Positions 1 through 63,461 of a stretch of 64,000 nucleotides of DNA are shown piece by piece. Source of the DNA: Antennarius striatus (lineage: Eukaryota > Chordata > Actinopteri > Lophiiformes > Antennariidae); NCBI RefSeq assembly GCF_040054535.1, contig NC_090781.1, positions 12,253,482 to 12,317,481 on the forward strand, written 5' to 3'. Made by a program: the position numbers and the translations under genes. Positions within the stretch are counted from its first letter, which is position 1. Each line of letters starts with the position of its first letter. The notes under the pieces are model-generated. The model was not told the DNA's origin. It searched no databases and was given only the letters and a program-made list of their open reading frames with translations.

Positions 1-7999
<7,999 letters not shown>

Positions 8000-10871: not shown

Positions 10872-11780
10872 TCACAGCTCACAGCGGTTGTCCTCAGCCT
10901 TGTAGCGGTCCATGATGCTCAGGACGTCCTCCAGGATGGACGGGCCCAGGTCCAGGTCTAGACCCGCCATCGAGTCCGAGCGTGGCACACTGGAGGGCGC
11001 TCTGAGACCGGCGGGCTGGAAGGAAGTACACGGTGACTCGCTGCGCTCACTCCTCAGATCCTCGTTGCTTAGGCCAGCGTCTGAGTCCAGGCTGAGGCCC
11101 CGGCGGACGTCCAGGGGCCCGCAGATTTCCGACATGGAATCCTCAGAAGAGGCCTCTGAGAAAGAGCCGGAGGAGGGGACGAGCCTGTGGATGGAGGGGG
11201 AGAGGGAGATGTCGCGGCAGGGCTCTGAAGCCAAGTGGCCGACCACGCCGTTCCCCAAGAGTGACAGCGTGGTGTACTGCCCCCTGTGGCCGTCCGTGTC
11301 ACTGCAGCTGTTGGCCTCTCTGGGGTTCCTCTCCGGACACGGCTGATGGTGCTGGAAGGAGTTCTGCTGGGGGGGCAGCGACGGAGGGGAGGGATCATCC
11401 AGGTGGAGGCGTGGCGGTTTGGGCGGAGCCTGTTCGTGGGCGATGAAGACGGGCAGGGAGATGGTTGTCTTCAGGAGGCCGCTGGAGGAGTGCTGGTAGT
11501 GGTATCCGTTGTAGGAGTAGTCGTGTGGGTCGCTGCTCTCCACGCTGTGTGAACGCCCGTTCTGCACCCGGCTCAGGGCGGGCAGCATGTTCATCTTCCC
11601 CTGAAGGAAACCCACATCTCCAAACATGTCACCTTCCCCTTCGGGCCCCACGTGTGCACTGTGTCTTACATCCCCCAGCGGCGGACTGATCATGTCCCCC
11701 GAGAGGACGTCTCGAAGCCTCATCTTCTTTCCCTTCTTTGGAGTGGTGGTTTTTAGGTAAATGGGTGTCTTGGCTGGCAT
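10872..11780 (-). CDS. Cdc42 effector protein (Borg/CDC42EP family, EP2/EP3-like)
   Basis: Single coding exon of 302 codons. Borg proteins bind GTP-loaded Cdc42 through a CRIB motif and organise septins and actin at the cortex. The N-terminus MPAKTPIYLKTT followed by a Lys-rich stretch resembles CDC42EP3. Residues about 31-45 form the CRIB, followed by the BORG homology FGDVGFLQGK. A Pro-rich stretch QAPPKPPRLHL resembles CDC42EP2, and the C-terminal BD3-like block DLGPSILEDVLSIMD is near residues 280-294. The CRIB reads ISPPLGDVRHSAHVG, with Val where family members I recall have Phe. An acceptor-like CTTCTCTCAG at 11807 suggests a spliced 5' UTR starting at 11806, with the first exon further upstream. 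It is longer than human EP2 and EP3 because of a Ser/Pro-rich middle. Paralogue assignment is open, so no symbol is given. Confidence 0.9.
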   Translation of the reverse strand: MPAKTPIYLKTTTPKKGKKMRLRDVLSGDMISPPLGDVRHSAHVGPEGEGDMFGDVGFLQGKMNMLPALSRVQNGRSHSVESSDPHDYSYNGYHYQHSSSGLLKTTISLPVFIAHEQAPPKPPRLHLDDPSPPSLPPQQNSFQHHQPCPERNPREANSCSDTDGHRGQYTTLSLLGNGVVGHLASEPCRDISLSPSIHRLVPSSGSFSEASSEDSMSEICGPLDVRRGLSLDSDAGLSNEDLRSERSESPCTSFQPAGLRAPSSVPRSDSMAGLDLDLGPSILEDVLSIMDRYKAEDNRCEL

Positions 11781-14700
11781 TTTGCTCCAGATATCAGTGT
11801 CTCTGTCTGAGAGAAGAGGTGATCCTCCTCTCTGGGGTTCTCCTCTTGATCGCTTCCAGCAAGAGGAATGAAGTGGAGTCTCAATAGAGCGTCAACAACT
11901 CACAAAGAGTTCATGAGAAGCTCTGCTGGCCCATCCCACTCTGATCCACTCTGTTGTTTCTCCAAGTCAGTTTACGAGTATTTAGGTCTGTCCGTGTAGC
12001 AATAGCAACCCCGGGGTTGTGCCTCACGCTGACATGTGACTCGGGGGAGGAGAGTAGGAAGGCCTTGACCTCAGCTCAACTACCTCTGTCTTTTTCTCAT
12101 ACACAGAAAAGCCATATCCAAGCAAGCACAGGGGCTTTTCCCTTCCGAGCAGGTCTTTATCTCTCCTCAGTCCAGGGGGATGAAGGGATGAAGGCCGTGT
12201 TCTCTGGCGGTCTCGCCGTCTGCCGTTCGATCGGTACCTCGGCTCGGAGACTTCAGGAATGAGACATCAAAAAGCTGGAGATCTGTGAGGAGAAGCGAGA
12301 CAGAAGAGGAGTCAGATACAGATGAAGTGAGAGGGAAGAGAAGCTCAGGAGATAAATGGAGGGGAAGGGAGGAGGCACAAACCGAAGGGGAATGAATGCG
12401 GGAAGAGATTTACAACCCTCTCGTCACTGAGCCAGAGGACATAGGATGACAAACACTCCAAGAATCCTGAGTGCTAAGGAAAAAAATGGCCTGACTGGCC
12501 CAGAATATGTGAAAATGTGTGACTTGAGGTCTCGTGGGTGTTGAGGCAGCTCTTGTCAAAATGCATCAGTGCAGAAAATTGGTCATACATTCCTGAAGAC
12601 CCCTCAGATTACTTGAAGGAAACACAAATTATCGCAGTAAAATTGTTGTTTTGGAACTCTTTTGGACTCTCAAGCCCGCGTTCTCGTCTGCAGCGGCGGC
12701 CTGTTATCACTGAAGAATCTTAAAGTCCCTCTCCTGACACAAACACTATGAATTATGGGACGGCATTCGGGTCATGCCTGAGGGCTCTGTGATCTTGTGA
12801 TCCCATTAAGATCCTATATGTTCCATTGGTATGCGACTCTTTAAAATACAGAGGGGTGCTGTTCAGAGGAATCACCACAAACAGTTTGGAATCCTTTGAA
12901 GAATAGAACTCCTTCCTTCATAAAAACATGTAAAAAACAAGAACTGTACAATCAGCCTGGTGCGGCAGAACTATTAATGTCTCTAGGAGGCTATTTCAGT
13001 CGTGAAAACAGATTATATTTTCCTCAGTCCTTCTCATATAACTTGGAGATCTTGTGATTGTGTCTGACTGCCATATGTCTCAAACGCTCCTCCATATTTA
13101 CTCATCACTATCTAAAAATAAGAGAAACCAGAGCGAGAGAAGTCACAGTGTCGATCTCTGTCTTGTGACCGCCTGACCTTGAGTTCACAGGCATCGGAGT
13201 GTTTACTGAGGAGACACACACAGGAATGTGACAGCGTGGATCCAGAAAGCACTACAGACATCATTTCAAAGAATAAAACCTCAGGGATATTTTTGCTTCA
13301 GGTGCGTCTGCATATAACAGCGTATCACTGATGACATGTCACTATTACAGTCTTGGGTATTGAACGTTTGAAAATGTGATTTGGTTTCAGTTCAGTTTGA
13401 CTAACAGTCAACATCTTTAGAATTTCAGTTTAAAGTGTCAAATCACATGAAGACAGTTTCAATTTTTTTTTTCAATTTTATTTACTAATTTGATCCCCGA
13501 AGGGCAATTAAGAGGAGAAGCTGAAATTGCAGGATCTGTTTACATCTCCATGGAGTCATCATCACGAAGGCATCTGAAACGGTCCTGTGAACGTTGAGGG
13601 TTCATATTCCGGTTAGCTTGCACGGCTGAACTTCACTGGGGTTTCTTTGACTTATATTTATCTAAAGTACAAGAGCTTTAATAAACATAAGGATTGAATG
13701 TTTTTATCACAAATCCTTATAAATGTGTGACAACATGAAGAGAATGAAGGGTTCACCCTGAATAACGTCAGCTAGGACAAACCAAATAGAATGTTTAAGT
13801 AATAATAAGATCCCAATAAGCACTGATCTGATCATTTACAGGCAAGACATTTCGCTTTCTTGGATGTCCATATCACTAATAATTGTTGTTTCAGCAGTTT
13901 TCCAACTGCTGTATCTGCACATTTGATTAAAACCAGGTCACACTGAGAACTATTGATCTGAATACGATCGCAGCAGCTGACAGAAGATGCAGACTAGTGG
14001 TCGTCTGCTGTGTGAGCGTCCCAGCAGGAGTTTGCTTGGAGTCATGCTGACACATCACCAATGAAACAGACAAGACGTCTGCAGCTGGAGACGTTAGCCC
14101 TGGAAATTCCATCATCATTCCCTCTCCTGTGATATAAACACAGAGCTCATATATATTCTGATAGACCCACCCAAAATAGTTCACCACTACTCACAACACA
14201 GTTTGGCATTCCACTTCTTATTTATGGTTTTATTTCTAGTTAAGAAAAGGCGTTCCAAGAGCTTGACCATTACTTTTCATGTCACACAACCATCTGATTA
14301 ATATTTTATTTCCTTTAAAACTAATGACATTCCTATTTAACACAGTTTTGGAGTTTAATATACAGCTTTTATTCCACATAAGCTTCTGATCAAAATATTG
14401 TACTTTTGACAATGCTTGTGAACAATTTTATGCAGTTGGAACATGTATTTTCTAAGTTACTGATATGCCTTGACTACAGCATCATAACAGCAGGTCTACT
14501 AATCACATGTGGAATTCCCGGTCTCCTATATATGTCCTAATCAGATGCCCACACCATCAACAGCTCCTTCCTTACTGTGAAATTCTACATGTATATCTGT
14601 ATTCGTGTAAATGTGCTGTCTCACTTGTTTTTCTCTCTTTTTCAATACCTACATTTAAAAAAGCATCTATTTGCTGTTAATGAGAGGAGAAAGTGTCTCT

Positions 14701-15394: not shown

Positions 15395-15705
15395 CTCCAG
15401 AACTGAAGAAGCCTCTTGGATGAGAGGTGAAAAGTCTTCAAGAAACGTTCTTAAAGTCCAATGGACTGATTTAAACTGCTTTGGATAACCATGACCTGGA
15501 TAACTGAGAACTTAACACAGACATGCAAAAGCTGCTGAGTCGATCCACTGGACGTTAAGAAAGTTCTTGAAGACGTTTCGTCTCTCACAACTGAAGAAGT
15601 CTCTTGGATGAGAGACGAAACGTCTTCAAGAACTTTCTTAACGCCCAGTGGATCGACTCAGCAGCTTTTGGATACCCATGACCTGGATGACTGAGAAACC
15701 AACAC
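15395..15705. repeat. Dispersed repeat with 61-bp near-perfect inverted arms
   Basis: Left arm 15527-15587 and right arm 15609-15669 are reverse complements with one mismatch in 61 (an A at the position after CCACTGG against G in the other arm), around a 21-nt spacer. A diverged direct copy of the right-hand unit lies at 15395-15510; both contain CTCTTGGATGAGAG and CATGACCTGGAT. The unit resembles a repeat I associate with many teleost genomes, but its class is not known to me. Confidence 0.85.
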
Positions 15706-15710
15706 AAACA

Positions 15711-18700
15711 TCTTACACAAACATGATTCAATCAAACTGCAGCGCTGTTTGCTGAACAACTTCAGCAAACAAACGTTCAATAGTTGTCTGTGACCAAATA
15801 GAATTCTGCTAAAAGAAAAATAATTGTCTCATCCATCAGAGAAAATGAAACTAATTTGAAGACTATTTATGTCTGAACTCTCAAACACACATCTTTCAGC
15901 CCTCCCCTGAAAGCTGGAATTCGGGCCGGTGGTGATGCAATCCGCCGCAGAGGAGACTGACCTGACATCTGTTTCTACTCTCAGGCTCCGTTTGCTGCTC
16001 GTCTCCAGCAGGACAGGCGGTTTAGTGAGCTGTCATCTTAGGACACACATTTACCAACAGAAACGCCTGAACGCACGTCGACACCGCTCGTTTCTTTCGG
16101 TCCGCTGCCTCTTGCGCCGCGCGTAATTACGCTCAGCAGGGGACTGTTGACCAAACCTCACTGCCTGTCTGTTAATCCGCTCGTTCATAATCAGAGATCA
16201 AGATGGATTTATCTGTTATTAGATGCCATAACTGTTTGTAAGAGCCTTTTTTTTTTTTTAACTTCGCGACTTTCATCTTTTTAAAATCTTTTTTAGAACT
16301 ACTTTTGACTCCCTGAACTCAAGTTTGGAAACTTTTCTCTATCAGTAAAACTATGAGTAAGTAATTTTTTCTGGAGCTCTGAGGGAGTGTACACAGTGAG
16401 TCACCTGTGATCCATCCCTCACAGTTTTAATAAACCGAGATCAAGCTGTTGGTCGCAGCTGATTTCCCTTTATGAACAAAACAGAACGTCAACCAGTGAG
16501 TGAGGATACAGTCCAGCTCCGGTCCACTCCCTCTTCCTCTGGTGTTATGTAACCAGATCCTGTGAGATCATCTCTCCTCCTGAAGCCTCTCACCGGTTGA
16601 CTACCAGTAGATCAAATACATGTTTCTAGTCAACAAGCACAGCTATGTACAGTCTGGTTCATGTGAACACGACTTTAGCTCCTATTGGCTGCGGTCAAAC
16701 ACTTCAAATTGTCCCTAGGATGCTAGAATAAATATCTGTTTCCATGTTGGAACAGCGCCTTCAAATTTAAGACAGTAATAACAGTCTGGTGTTGTGGTTC
16801 CATTTGAACTGTTCTTAAATTCTCTGGGACTTGGAGTTCATGTTCACTGACAGGAACAGTAATCACCAGTCTGAGCCACAGGACGCGTTTAAAATTACGC
16901 ATAATCCCAAATCTGATTGTTCTCCCCATTCCACAGAACAATTAGAACGCAACGCCTCTATAAAACTAATCTGCTGTGAAATTAGATCGTCTGACCCTAA
17001 TTTGTTCAGGTCGTGTTCTTTTCACCCGAAACTGCAAAGTGACAAAGGCGAATAAAACAATGTTATCTCCTCCAACATCAGAACATCTACAGAGTGACAC
17101 AACAGCATTGCGTAACCGTAAACCCGACCAGGTTTTAATCTAATTATCTATATGAAAAACGTAGATCATACTCACAGGTGTCTTAAAAGTAAACCTCACT
17201 CCGACGGTTTCAAAAATAAGGGATGTTTTCCATGTGTTTTAAAAACTGCGCACATTCAACCCAAAGGGAGTGTCTCACGCCGCGGAGCCACTGCCCGTGT
17301 TTTTAAACACGTCCAGTGCGACAGGTTTACTTCTTTTTGTCACTGACACAATAGACAACAGAAAGTCTATTCAAGAGGATGGTCATCCATAGTCCACGGC
17401 TCACGGGTAACCTCGCTGAATAAATTACCACATGATCCCAGAATAATCTGATTACCGGGTGACAGATTACTCACGGGATGAGACGTGGCTCCGCCACTCA
17501 GACCGGTGCAGCTCGGTCCAACAGTCCAGCGACACTGACCCCCACCTCCGCACAGGTAACCCGCTTATCTCCAGGAGCGCTCTGGATGGAGAAAGTAAAC
17601 GGGGATCAGCGCGACGCCACGCGAGACGTCAAGTTTATGACAGGAGCAAATCACATCCGGTAAGAATTTCAAAATAAAACGATTAACTTTAGAAATGGCT
17701 GTATGCTCCCTTCACGATGTATGGTTCGGAGGAGGATACAGTGATTTGATTTGGTTTCAGAAAGAGATTTTAAAAAGCGATGACAAAATGTTCTTTGATA
17801 TATTTTTGTTTTTTAAACAACCAATATTGAAAACAATGCGACAATATATATTTTGTAGAAAAAAAATTATATATTTTTTCGGTTTCTGAGACCGGAAGTA
17901 GTCAGCTGGCTTCAAAATAAGAGCATCAACTGCGGTGGCACGAACACCCCTACCCGATTACCTGTGACTCAGGAGTCCACGGTTGAAGAATAAGCACACT
18001 TTTTTTTTTCGGACAATGCAAATTCCACCAAGAAAATGCTGAATAGTCTATTTTACTGGATTTTCTGAAATTTAAACTTAAAATCAGGGTTTTACAAATT
18101 GACATTCGTTGATATCATCAATATAATGAGAAAAATGGACCAAAAACAATATTCACATTTAGCTCAATAATTAAAGCGTGTCATGCCTGACTTCAAAATA
18201 AATGCATCTTTCAGTGATCACTCAGTAGTAGTAAAATAATCAGATGTGTACTGATAAAAAGTGTTGAAAGTGGTTGGACGATTGAATTCACCATCAAAGC
18301 AAAGCGAGACATCTGAAAACACTGCTGATGGAAAACCCCATGAGAAAGACTAGTTAACAGGTGGGAATACGCAAGAGGTCAAAGGCCAGACAGTGAAAAA
18401 TGATGTCAATTAATCCACATTTATTGTTTGTCGTTTATTTGCGTTTTTTGTTGGGGTTTTTTGCAAAATCTACATCACAAAAAAAGGTCCTTATTCCTTT
18501 GTACCTTCAGATGAAAGTAATACGTCAGGGTGTTCTCACCACCTCACACAGTGAAACAGAGGCACATGTCACCGTGGTGAAAGACTGAGTGAAGGTGATA
18601 AAGACGTCTGTCACTGATGATTGATCCAGGAAAAATGCTAGTTGAGTACATAGTTGTACATTTTGATGATGAAGGCGAGATCAGCAAGTATTTCAGGCTC

Positions 18701-29357: not shown

Positions 29358-29511
29358 ATGAAATATGTTATGAGGCATCAGTTTTGTTCACCAGTTTGTC
29401 TTCTTAACCATCTCAAAGGGGTAGTTACAACGCTCGTCTCTCTCCTTTTCACTGATGTGTCCAAAAAAGTCAAGCGCGCTGAAGGCCGACCTGTCGACCG
29501 GCTCCAGGTGG
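29191..29511 (-). other. Candidate proximal 3' UTR of zc3h4
   Basis: Follows the zc3h4 stop codon. An AATAAA hexamer on the minus strand at 29191-29196 is a candidate polyadenylation signal. The UTR would include the TG tract at 29300-29354. Confidence 0.4.
29300..29354. repeat. (TG)n microsatellite in zc3h4 3' UTR
   Basis: About 27 units with one interruption, 158 bases past the stop codon; it would be CA-rich in the transcript. Confidence 0.95.
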
Positions 29512-32500
29512 TCACTGGCAAAAAGGGGAGGCTGTGGGGTCAAAACCTTTGAACACCTCCTTCAGCGACGCGTTGTCCTGCTCTGTGGCCACCTGCTCCG
29601 GCTGCACCGGGCTGCTGCCTCCAAACGGACTGCCCGTCCCCCCGGGTTTGTTTGCCTGCTTCACAACGCCGAACAGAGAGGACACTGGGAGGTTGTGGAC
29701 GCCGGCAGACGCCTGATCCCCAGCAGGCCCGGGGAGACCCTGACCGGCAGCTGCTGCACTGGCTGCGGCGCTTCCTGCCTGCGCCGTGGAGTTGGGCGAG
29801 GGCGCCGGCTTGGGCCGCGGCCTGTTGTAGCTGTTGTAGCGATCAGTCCCCTGCTCGCCGCTTTTCTCCGGTTCTGGATGGTCCAACGCAGACTTCCGAA
29901 CAAACAGAGGCTCCTTGGACTTGGGTTTGGACGTTGTTGAGTCGCTTGATTTGGACTCTGTGCTGGTTGAACTTGGGGAGCTGTTAGAACTACTGCTAGT
30001 GCCAGGACTGCCTGGTTTGTTAGTCCGAGGGTCATACAGACTGATACTGCTAAGCACGCTAGCGCCCCCTGGTGCCCCTGCTGCCACACTGCGCCCCGCC
30101 CCACCTGAAGACAGCAGCCTGGGGTCGTAGGGGGCAACAGTGGGAGGAGAGGAGCTTGATGCTGTTGCTGGAGAGGTAGAAGACGCAGGAGGGGGTGTAG
30201 GGTCTGACGATTGTTTCAGTGATGATTTCTGAGGCTGGAGGCGGGGGTCTGTCAGGCCTTTACGGGCCATCCGGGGGTCAACAGGCTTTTCTATTAGCGT
30301 AGGAGGATTGGGGGGAATAGGGCCCAAAATTGGCCCAGGGGCCGTTAAAAGAGGAGGGGAAGGGCTCTGTGACGGGCTGGAGTTAACAGTCTTCAGGATA
30401 CGTGACAACAGCTCGAAGTCTGGAAGGGAGGATGTGGAAGAAGATGGAGCGGGGGTCTCTGAGGACGGGGTGGGCTGTAAGGGAGGAGGCTGCGTGTGAG
30501 ACATGGAGGTGTGAAGTGACTGCTGAGCACGAGACAGACGCATGTCTATGGAGGAAACGGGAGGGATGCCTGGGGGGAGTGGGAGGAGGTCCTGCTTCGG
30601 GATGGGGAGTGGGAGCAGATCTTCGGGCGACCAGGTGACGGCCTTGGAGAAGGCAGGGACGTGGAGGACGATGTCCTTCTTGATGTGGCTGAACTGCTGC
30701 AGCTGTGAGCGCGGGTCTCTGAGGGCCATGCCCATCAGGGGGTCCAGAGGGATCGGGACGGGTTTGTCCCGGAGAACGCGCTCCGTCTCCTCCTCGTCCG
30801 CTGTTGGGACGGTCAGCGGCGGGGGCTTGTAAACCAAAGGAGGCTCTGCTTTGGGAGCTGGAGTCGAGAGGGAGGTGGAACCCGGTGAGGCGGCGGCATT
30901 TAGCCGAGCTAACCTGGGGTCTGCCGGAGGTCCAGCGGAAGATAGAGCAGGCATCGAGTGGGCGGAGTCAGACGTTTGAGCCGACTCGGCAGCGCGGGCC
31001 AGGCGCGGATCCCTGACCAGGCGGGGATCCGCCGGCCGCGCAGGAGCTGGAGAAGCTTTCTGGAGGCGAGGATCGCTCGGAGGTGCTTCGGATTTTTGAG
31101 AAGGCTGGGTCTGCTGACGGAGAGTCTTCAAGATGGAGGTCACCGTACCACCGCCATCCTCATCCTCACTGGAGTACCAGTTCCCTGAGTCACCTGGGAA
31201 ACACACACTGACGTTATCCAATGTCAAGCTGGAGATTTCAAAAATAATCCTGAAATATTTGAACTCTTTAACTGCTTCCATCACAGAAGAAAACTAACAG
31301 AGCAAAAAACACAACACATTATTGATACACCAGCAGGTAGAGATGCTTTTTCTCTACCTTCCATTTCTCGGCTCTTCTCAGCTCCCCCCTCTGCTATCCT
31401 GCGAGCTCTTTCCTCCTCTTCCTGCTGCTTCTGCTGGATCCTCATGAACAGAACTCGCTGTGCTGGTGGCAGGAAGTCAGGCACAGAAATCCCTCCCTGA
31501 CTGGCTGATGCTCCATTCGTCGATGCCTCCACTCCTCCTGACTGGTTGCCAAACTTTCCTCCTCCTCCTCCTCCTCTCTCATCCATGGCAGCAAAACCCT
31601 GATAATCGTCACCTGAGAGGATCCGTAAACACACTCATCAGCACAAACAGTGGAAAATCAAACTTTAAATTTATCCTGTCATTTCGTAAGTATTCGTTTG
31701 GATAACCCAACTCCACGCTCACCTTCTTGCACGACCCCCTCCATCGTCATACCGTCTTGCTGATTGAAAAAGTTATTAAAGAAGTTCCCTCCCCCCTGAG
31801 GAGGACCTGGAGGCATCACACCTCCTTGAGGAGGTCCGTCTCCAGCTGGAAATCCTGCCATCATGGGTGGGGGAGGCCCCTGGTTCATCCCCAGGTTCTG
31901 TGCATCGGGAGGCATCATGCCTGGGGGGGCAGGGAAGCGGGGTGGAGGGGCACCAGGGGCCCCTGGGGGTCCAGGTGCTGCAGTCTGAGTCTGGTTGCCA
32001 TTGGGAGTCTGGCTTCTGTCACAGTGAAAGAAGAAAAGAGTAGGAGCCGTTAGAGAAACGACAGGAGCCCTCAGTCCAGTGTGGTTAAATATCTCACAGA
32101 ATCAGCAGCTTCAGGTTTTACAGGCATAAATAATACAGATTTTCATTTTCTCAATGATTTTCTTCACCTGACAGCCAGTTTTTGAGCCAACTGTCCGGTT
32201 GGCTGAACTTTAATCTCAAACAGCGACGGGATCTTCTTCCCTGCACCGCATCCCCCCGCACCGGCAGCAGGTGGGGGACCAATGTGGGGAGGGGGAGGCC
32301 CGTTGAGGTTCGGAGGAGGAACACCCTGGAAAGGACTTCCTTCAGGTCCATGAACAGGGGGGGGTGGACAGGGGTTAGGAACAGGAACAGGCACTGGTCC
32401 TGGTGGCCCTTTGCTGGGAAGGGGCCCCGGGTTGGGTCCAGGAGGCCCCCCAAAGTCACCTAACGCAGGACCAGTGAAATCCCCAGCCACTGTGTTGGTG

Positions 32501-35500
32501 TCCAAGGGAACAGGCCGAGGAGGGGTGGGGAGGAGGCCGACACCAGGTGGGGGTTTGGGGAGCGGGTTTATCCCCTGCTTCTTCAGCTCCTCCACCTCCT
32601 TCTCATCCTCAGCTCCAGCCTCAGCATCCTCTGCCAGCATCTAGAAAACACATCACACAGTTTACACAGATTCATCTGACATTTTCATGAAGCATTCCTA
32701 AAATCAAAAAAGTTCACCTATAAAATTGTAAACCCAGTTAGTGAGCAGAGTTCCTGACCTTGTTGAGCAGCTCCTGGGTGTCGTCGTTGAGGGCTTCATG
32801 GGAAAACATGCATTCATCACTGTTGACACAGTTGCCTGTGGTGTGAAACAGCTTACAGGGGAATTCACGTAACACAGAGGGTTAAGGAGAAAAATGATAT
32901 CAGACAGAAAATTCTTGCCGTCTCCAGTTCTACAATCAGAACAAACTCACTACTTTTAATCTGTCCAATTCTTGTAGAGCTGCTTAACCGTCTTGTGGGT
33001 TACGGGTCTGCTGGAGCCTATCCCAGCTGTTCATGGGTAAAAGGCGGGGTACACCGCCGATAAGACGACAGCCAAACAAGTCAGGTGGAATTAATGTAAC
33101 TTAAACGGTCTTTTCCCCTTCAATCGTATCGCTTTAGGGACAAACAGGAACACATCACCAAGAATCTGTATTTACTTGTACATAAACCGTCTCTGAGCTG
33201 GACAGTAAAGGATATCATGCATGTAAGGACAGTGGTCAGCTCGGGCACAAAATCCAGTAATGTAGAACTTGCACAGCTCCTTTTTCTTGGGCAGTTCAAT
33301 GTCATGGCTAAAATTACAGTGGTCCCCCTGGTGGAGAGAACAACAGAATGAGAGATGCAGCAGATGTCGGCTTTTTCCCCACCTTAAGTTTTGTTCATCA
33401 AACTAAAACTGCATTTATATCAAGAAAAACAGTTGACTCCTACCCAGGTGCATCTCCCCTCAATGTAGTACTTGCAGATGGCCTTTCCTTTCTTGTCCTG
33501 GTGTTTGTCGTTCTGATTCCTTCTACCAAGGCCGACTCCATCACCTCCTCCACCTCCATCCTGAAAAAAATACACACACCAAACAGAAAGCATGGTGTCA
33601 GGCAGAATATTACTGGTCAAGTCTAATATAAAGAATATAATAATTATATGTCGGTGTGCAGAGACATATTTTTGATTTCGATTATCTATTTGTCTAAAGG
33701 TCTCACCCCATTGTCCATGTCTCCATTGTTGTCATCTTCCATTCCCATGTCACCTCTTCCTCTCCCGCGGTTTCGACCCCTTCCCCCTCGCATCAGACCG
33801 CGTCCTCCTTTTCCCCTCCCTCGCCCGCGGCCACCTCTACCTCCTGGTGAAAAAAATTAAAGACAGACAGGGAGTGAAATGTTTTGGAGACAAGGATAAT
33901 AGATATTGCCAGACAAAGTTTTAGGCTGGACAGTAATCACACCTCTGCCTCTGTCTTTGGATTTTTTATAGTGATTGAGTTCTTTTGAGTAGTCGTCATA
34001 GTCGTCCTCCCCCATGTTGTCGTAGTCATCATCTCCATACTGTACGGGCAGATTTAACAGGTGTCACTTCAGTGATAGGTCACAGAACATAAAAAACAAC
34101 AGGTTTTATAATTGATATTATTAAGAGTAAATAATAGTAAACAAGCTGAGATATTTTTGGACAAGAATTTAACAACTTTATATGTCAAATGAAATCAAAC
34201 ATGATGGTTTGTGGGGGAGACAAACATAGCACCAGATCAATTAGATCAATTTTTAGAGATTCAGTGTAATAATACACAAATATTCACAATGCATGAATTA
34301 TACACCAGTTATATACTATCAATAGAGAAGCTTTTACTGTTTTCTATCAATTTAGAAGCTTTATGTTTGTCTATTTCAAAGGGAAACACTGAAGAGCTTT
34401 CTGTTCACTGGAACGTTATCAGGTGAAATATATTTACACACCTGTCCAAATACAGGAGTGTAGGAAAAGAATAAGAACTTCTCTCCTGAATTTTGACCAA
34501 ATCAAGAGGACTCCTGCTTCCTTTTTGAATTGTTAACCTCACCTCCATCTCGTCTCCGTAGCCGTCACCATCTTCATCTCCCATCTTTCCTCCTCGGCCT
34601 CCTCTTCCTCTGCTGCCTCCTCTTCCCCTCCTCCCACCCCTTAGTCCTCCACGACCTCTGAGGTTCCTCATACGACCTTTTCCAACTGGAAACACAAAAA
34701 CAAAGAGAAAAACATGAGAAAAATACAGATGCAGGCAGACAGAGTCCACATCTGAAGAGACATCCCTCACATCACGAGTCCGTTTCTGAACTCCATTCAG
34801 TCTGACCCGGCTGACATGGACTCACCCCGCCCGCCTCGGCTGGCGCCTCCCTCCTTGGCCTTGCGATACTGGTTCAGCTCCTTGGTGAAGTCGTCATAGT
34901 CTTCCTCTCCCATGTCATCATCTTCCTCTCCCTCGTAGTTGTCATCGTCATACTCGTCATAGCCTCCATAGCTCTGCTTGTCCATCTTCATGTAGCCTCC
35001 TTTCTTTGAGCCGCCGTAGCCGCCGTGAGACTAGGGATGGGGAAATGTTACATTTTGGATTAAAAATAATCCCCACAATGTTGACAGGTGCGGACAACTT
35101 AAAATGTTACTGTGATTTTACCACAGACTTCTGTTCAGATTGCATTTTAAATGTTTGAGAGGTAACTTTTGGGGCTTACAGATGGGGGGTACTGTGGACT
35201 GTAATCTCTGTACTTTCTCTTCTCGCTGGGACTGTAGTCAGAGTCGTCGCTGTAGTCTGAGTGATCATCATCAGAGGACGCATGACGCTACAAAACATTC
35301 AGAGAAAAAATACTCTTAATAACGCTCATATACTAACAGACACGAGTTCATCTAGAGGTCTGTTTCCTGTAGCTGTAAAGACTCTTACTTTGTGCTTGGA
35401 TCTTCGTTTCTTCTTGGACCTCCTCTTCTCCCTCTCTCGCTCCTTCTCTTTCTTCCTCTTCCTCTTGCGACGGTGGGATCTCTCGTCGTCTGAGTTGCTG

Positions 35501-35692
35501 CTGGCGTGGCGCTCCTTACTCCGCCGGGGCCTCTCCCCAGGACCTTCTCCAACTCCGTCACCTCCCCCTCCTGCTTCATCACCGCCATCTCCACCACCCA
35601 TTGCTGCAGACGCACCCCCACCCATCTCCTCTTCCTCCACATCACCTCCATCGTCCTCCAGCTCGCCTTCCTCCAACTCTCCATCCTCTGGC
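29512..35692 (-). CDS. zc3h4: zc3h4, CCCH zinc-finger protein (exons 2 to last)
   Basis: In mammals ZC3H4 with WDR82 restricts non-coding RNA polymerase II transcripts in the nucleus. Coding exons: 35389-35692, 35180-35287, 34826-35030, 34543-34685, 33943-34039, 33707-33843, 33444-33560, 33216-33327, 32759-32868, 32168-32640, 31723-32015, 31358-31612, 29512-31193. Frame is kept throughout, giving about 1344 residues without exon 1 (human about 1303). Order: acidic [13 protein letters not shown], Lys/Arg-rich [20 protein letters not shown], two acidic-plus-RGG modules, three fingers (C-X7-C-X5-C-X3-H twice, then C-X8-C-X5-C-X3-H), [20 protein letters not shown], a Pro/Gly-rich stretch, [10 protein letters not shown], many DPRL/DPR repeats and the family C-terminus [13 protein letters not shown]. 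The intron 32869-33215 is AT-AC. I recognise the protein clearly; only the N-terminal exon is uncertain. Confidence 0.96.
32869..33215 (-). other. zc3h4: U12-type AT-AC intron of zc3h4
   Basis: The preceding exon ends CATG and the intron begins ATATCCTTT, the exact U12 donor consensus. A perfect branch-site match TCCTTAAC lies at 32888-32881, followed 12 nt later by the AC end at 32870-32869. The joined codons read CAT G|GT GAA TTC, giving His-Gly-Glu-Phe between zinc fingers 2 and 3, which agrees with the family sequence. No GT-AG alternative keeps the frame here. Confidence 0.93.
32960..33070 (-). repeat. SINE/LINE-tail fragment inside the AT-AC intron
   Basis: Contains the inverted phrase CTGGAGCCTATCCCAGCTG and GGCGGGGTACACCG, matching the tail family seen at 6123 and 8765. 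It makes up about a third of this short intron. Confidence 0.6.

Positions 35693-58236: not shown

Positions 58237-63461
<5,225 letters not shown>

Follow-up and report, generated by a model that had tools for sequence, protein, structure and literature searches.

U12-type introns with AT-AC termini are known from vertebrates in general, and their share among the introns of U12 type is 22% in Danio rerio and 26% in human (PMC7367187, Table 2). Several gene families are rich in minor introns, among them the sodium/calcium channels, E2F, RASGRP and the matrilins, and the fact that their paralogs share the minor intron has been explained by the duplication of an ancestral gene (PMC6865273); the main text of that paper contains no match for CCCH or zinc finger. 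The machinery of transcription termination is also dependent on minor splicing through the Integrator, whose subunits INTS4, INTS7, INTS8, and INTS10 are minor-intron genes, and for which measurements showed intron retention, a decrease in INTS7 and INTS10 protein, and 3′-extended snRNAs, whereas the effect on zc3h4 that we discuss below is a predicted one (PMC9881141). ZC3H4 itself has been reported to restrict non-coding transcription in human cells (PMC8137146). Here, we analyze a putative minor intron in zc3h4 of Antennarius striatus. It resembles the U12-type AT-AC introns of vertebrates in its termini, its donor, its branch site, and in standing alone as a minor intron beside major introns, and it differs from them in nothing essential, other than that zc3h4 as host gene was not found beside minor-intron terms in the literature searched.

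The window, that is, the whole 64-kb stretch of DNA that was analyzed (C6:12253482-12317481), carries zc3h4 on its minus strand. The three-finger CCCH block of this gene matched PDB 2cqe, described as 'KIAA1064 protein' (E 3.2e-35), and the Pfam family PF22623 (zf-CCCH_9, 'KIAA1064-like'; E 2.8e-25). We take KIAA1064 to be human ZC3H4. The best scores against the KIAA1064 stretch were 239 for the window copy, 170 for a related gene on C11, and 158 for another on C8, which by score identifies the window gene as ZC3H4 and not a paralog. The gene model and its features are listed in Table 1; coding sequence extends beyond the model, toward position 29400, and the exon numbering is that of the model only, which leaves out the 5′ end. 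Also on the minus strand of the window are a DEAD_2 helicase (4376-4735), a CDC42 effector (BORG_CEP; 10875-11891), and a BH3 match (59994-60326) that is weak, with 20.1 bits against a Pfam cut-off of 25. The first is presumably ERCC2-like and the last bbc3-like, which would suit the synteny of ZC3H4.

Table 1. Features of the zc3h4 model in the window and the corresponding introns of the two related genes.
Feature	Position	Strand	Description
zc3h4 coding exons 1-11 of the model	31723..35692	(-)	699 codons, 0 stops; nine GT-AG introns and one AT-AC intron
Exon 7	33444..33560	(-)	117 nt; start of finger 1; GT-AG intron 7 next
Intron 7	33443..33328	(-)	GT-AG, phase 0
Exon 8	33216..33327	(-)	112 nt; end of finger 1 and finger 2; Pfam CCCH matches on the joined block
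U12-type AT-AC intron (number 8 in the 11-exon model)	32869..33215	(-)	347 nt, phase 1
5′ splice site	33207..33215	(-)	ATATCCTTT; sole copy in the window
Branch site	32881..32889	(-)	CTCCTTAAC; branch A at 32882 or 32883
3′ splice site	32869..32870	(-)	AC
Exon 9	32759..32868	(-)	110 nt; finger 3; Pfam zf-CCCH_9, KIAA1064-like
Intron 9	32758..32641	(-)	GT-AG, phase 0
Exon 10	32168..32640	(-)	preceded by GT-AG intron 9
C11 intron			110 nt; ATATCCTTC...TTTCCTTAGCCTGTGTTTGCAC; junction MH-N-EYPCK
C8 intron			89 nt; ATATCCTTC...CTTCCTTAACCGCCTGAAC; junction MH-K-SFPCK

The donor of U12-type AT-AC introns has the consensus ATATCCTT(T), and their branch site the consensus TTCCTTRAC. The zc3h4 intron, with the ends ATATCCTTTACTG...TTCTCCTTAACCCTCTGTGTTAC, reads ATATCCTTT...CTCCTTAACCCTCTGTGTTAC from 33215 to 32869, and its donor agrees with the U12-type pattern ATATCCTT(T). 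Its branch site, CTCCTTAAC, matches the consensus at eight of nine positions (one mismatch), with 12 nt from the AAC to the end; counted from TCCTTAAC, exactly 12 nt follow, the terminal AC included. An earlier note on this DNA had placed the intron at 32869..33215, with a donor and a branch site of the minor type and a terminal AC 12 nt downstream. The coordinates proved exact, with gene and intron on the minus strand, and ATATCCTTT, CTCCTTAAC, and the 12-nt spacing were all found. The exons are joined as CATG|GTGAATTCC, which encodes His-G|ly directly behind the final His of the second CCCH finger. Both ATATCCTTT and TCCTTAAC occur once in the 64-kb window, the two strands taken together, and both copies are inside this intron. 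In 50 order-1 random sequences of 64 kb (one strand), we counted 13 copies of ATATCCTTT, 62 of TCCTTAAC, and no properly spaced pair, which rules out a chance co-occurrence of the donor and branch motifs.

A looser scan of the window, for [AG]TATCCT and a branch site with at most one mismatch no more than 3 kb apart, returned nine pairings, one of which is the zc3h4 intron. The remaining eight candidate U12-like pairings, for example, that at 16509..15539 of the minus strand, are tied to no coding junction. The intron also contains a dispersed repeat fragment at 32964..33072, clear of the splice signals, which is present at a minimum of 39 further places in the genome with 77-86% identity (40 of 394 candidates scored), and a related piece is located at 6120-6183 of the window.

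A protein search of the genome (548 Mb, 42 contigs) with the finger block yielded six matching pieces, which pair up at three loci: the window, C11:15933553-15933887, and C8:24822090-24822400 (the C8 pieces are L014 and L016). When the C8 block was used as the query instead, the same three loci were recovered, and no fourth family member was present among the candidates scored with the two queries (17 and 19, respectively). The C11 and C8 genes are each split at the same codon as zc3h4 by a phase-1 ATATCCTTC...AC intron, which places an AT-AC intron at this codon in all three family members found in the genome (two of two paralogs, of which one also has a rival U2 pair). Introns 7 and 9, on either side, are at matching places in the three genes, and exons 8 and 9 measure 115 and 110 nt in both C11 and C8, as against 112 and 110 nt in zc3h4; the upstream intron 7 of C8, as modeled, starts with GC. 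Three junction placements in C11 lead to an identical mRNA and only one of them has AT-AC ends, while the best GT-AG/GC-AG pair scored 78 vs. 170 for AT-AC. For C8, the protein alone is indecisive, with a score of 158 for an AT...AG placement vs. 156 for AT-AC, and the AT-AC placement is favored because of its ATATCCTT donor and TTCCTTAAC branch site. An in-frame GT-AG pair in C8, with a score of 145 and the product MHNILQSFPCK, overlaps the U12 AT-AC sites. Since this U2 pair is present, the C8 intron may be spliced both ways or may be converting, and we regard it as a candidate dual intron. The ZC3H4/ZC3H6/ZC3H8 family has three members. We took the C11 gene to be zc3h6, given its ZC3H4-like C-terminal part (42% identity over 218 aligned columns) and the description of ZC3H4 and ZC3H6 as paralogues (PMC8137146). 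The C8 gene, which adjoins the gene for a PLA2G12-like protein, may be zc3h8, by elimination as the third member.

We also located U12, U4atac, and U6atac snRNAs of the minor spliceosome in the genome. U12 and U4atac have one locus each over the Rfam cut-off (123.1 and 94.1 bits, respectively), and U6atac has eight. The AAGGAGAG stretch of U6atac, which pairs with the donor, is found near the 5′ end in all eight loci. By eye, a full-length RNA is combined with a TATA-like box approximately 30 bases upstream in the C5 copy (L018) alone; another copy (L024) has TATAAA at about −39 and a diverged 3′ part. Four U6atac-like copies (L019-L022, C19:1773862-1800690) are spaced approximately 9 kb apart and have near-identical 80-base upstream flanks, in which no TATA box was seen; they are segmental copies and probably not expressed. 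With one A bulged in each case, GTAAGGAA of U12 forms seven of eight Watson-Crick pairs with the zc3h4 branch site, seven plus one G-U pair of eight with that of C11, and eight of eight with that of C8.

As most introns are U2-type, the zc3h4 intron might be spliced through a nearby GT-AG or GC-AG pair, the AT-AC match being a coincidence. We scored 40,975 donor/acceptor pairs between the flanking exons against the KIAA1064 stretch, 6,041 of which leave the frame open. The top junction was the AT-AC pair 33215/32869 with a score of 239, compared with 205 for the best GC-AG and 158 for the best GT-AG pair, and no shifted placement of this junction gives an identical mRNA. GT-AG alternatives were rejected, as fingers 2 and 3 are retained by none of the 229 pairs of this class (22 open). 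Two of the 233 AT-AC pairs (36 open) retain them, and the second uses the same donor with an acceptor within the branch site itself. The GC-AG class, with 70 pairs and eight open, includes a single one that retains both fingers, 33198/32851 (donor CCA|GCTCAG, acceptor GTAAG|CTG), which stays in frame and leaves the finger 3 spacing intact. Its donor, however, is unlike the GC-AG consensus AG|GCAAGT, and the linker GEFPCK becomes DILYCP, with the Cys correctly placed by chance, so we set this pair aside. The statement in the earlier note that only this junction restores His-Gly, therefore, holds among the canonical pairs tested, with one GC-AG pair that retains the finger spacing. Moreover, the ATATCCTT...AC signature recurs at the same codon in the two paralogs, and we consider a U2-type intron in zc3h4 extremely improbable. 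For the same reason, it is unlikely that the homologous intron is U2-type throughout vertebrates, the outcome that had been named as speaking against the AT-AC proposal; C8 also offers a U2-type pair. Major introns with AT-AC ends and U2-type signals form a rare class, of which 85 are mentioned in PMC8280824, and the zc3h4 intron could in principle be one of these. Its donor, nevertheless, is of the full U12 type (ATATCCTTT) and its branch site pairs with U12, which makes this assignment hardly credible. The signals and the best of the 40,975 junctions, thus, support the proposal of a U12-type AT-AC intron that separates fingers 2 and 3 of zc3h4.

That both paralogs have an AT-AC intron at this very codon indicates that the intron most likely predates the duplications. 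Could the three AT-AC introns instead have arisen separately, or by conversion, with no single ancestral U12 intron? The overlapping U2 and U12 sites in C8 suggest that the intron type may drift in the family, the comparison covers a single genome, and minor introns may be gained more often than used to be assumed, with 55 candidate gain events reported (PMC6865273). Nevertheless, codon, phase, and subtype are the same in three of three members and introns 7 and 9 also match, and we regard a separate origin as very unlikely. The intron of zc3h4 conforms to the pattern of inheritance, a separate minor-intron gain being less favored, and the three introns are most likely homologous, judging from position and type in one genome. 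The evidence we gathered points to a genuine U12-type AT-AC intron in zc3h4, of which we are highly confident and which has most likely been retained from a time before the ZC3H4/ZC3H6 duplication. This intron is ordinary in kind; the new point is that an AT-AC intron is shared by three of three members inside an exon pair that is jointly in frame.

In the literature searched, we came across no paper naming a minor intron in ZC3H4, ZC3H6, or ZC3H8 (supplements, U12DB, MIDB, and IAOD were outside the search). The term 'zc3h' has no match in the main text of PMC12332006, on Rnpc3 in zebrafish and mouse, or in that of PMC8034651. A search for ZC3H4 together with U12 led, going by titles and abstracts, to work on trypanosomes, Red1/MTREC, and renal cancer, and neither Restrictor nor the little elongation complex or ZC3H8 was found together with minor introns among the matches listed. 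It is quite possible that the zc3h4 intron has a prior database listing.

In minor splicing, the donor is read by U11 and then by U6atac, and the branch site is bound by U12. For zc3h4, we propose that the ATATCCTT donor would be read in this order, that U12 would base-pair to the CTCCTTAAC branch site, leaving one A bulged, and that the cut at AT...AC would join His-Gly between CCCH fingers 2 and 3; we infer the use of these sites in RNA from the genomic signals. Sensitivity of zc3h4 to minor-spliceosome defects is a sound prediction. Were the minor spliceosome to fail and the intron to be retained, 14 codons would be added and translation would stop after finger 2, and the skipping of exon 8 alone or exon 9 alone would shift the frame. 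If, on the other hand, the major spliceosome joined exon 7 to exon 10, the product would be in frame and would have the first half of finger 1 only. The loss of exons 8 and 9 is in frame in zc3h4, C11, and C8, and in zc3h4 it removes the rest of finger 1 together with fingers 2 and 3. In a study that inhibited components of the minor spliceosome, 60% of 58 raised alternative-splicing events skipped one or both of the exons flanking the minor intron (PMC8034651). Given this exon skipping and the in-frame double skip, a nearly finger-less product is predicted upon failure of the minor spliceosome.

A link from the minor spliceosome through zc3h4 to non-coding transcription is plausible and would not be the first of its kind, since the Integrator subunits already connect minor splicing to snRNA 3′ ends. 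If the mRNAs of zc3h4 and its paralogs need the minor spliceosome, this need could account for some of the transcriptome change in minor-spliceosome disease, beside the known route through the Integrator. The loss of CENATAC affects A-type (AT-AN) minor introns most, 92% vs. 24% of the G-type (PMC8280824), and this AT-AN bias offers a sharp test for zc3h4 dependence. A bolder reading, which we hold to be unlikely, is that the whole ZC3H4/ZC3H6/(ZC3H8-like) family might be wired to the minor spliceosome, as one ancestral AT-AC intron would be located between two exons that are jointly in frame; low activity would then switch the products from finger-bearing to nearly finger-less, and not only lead to mRNA destruction. 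ZC3H8 belongs to the little elongation complex, the driver of Pol II snRNA genes, as a subunit whose role is unknown (PMC5493778). Under such a family-wide wiring, and if the C8 gene is zc3h8, the output of the minor spliceosome would feed back on how its own U11, U12, and U4atac RNAs are transcribed.
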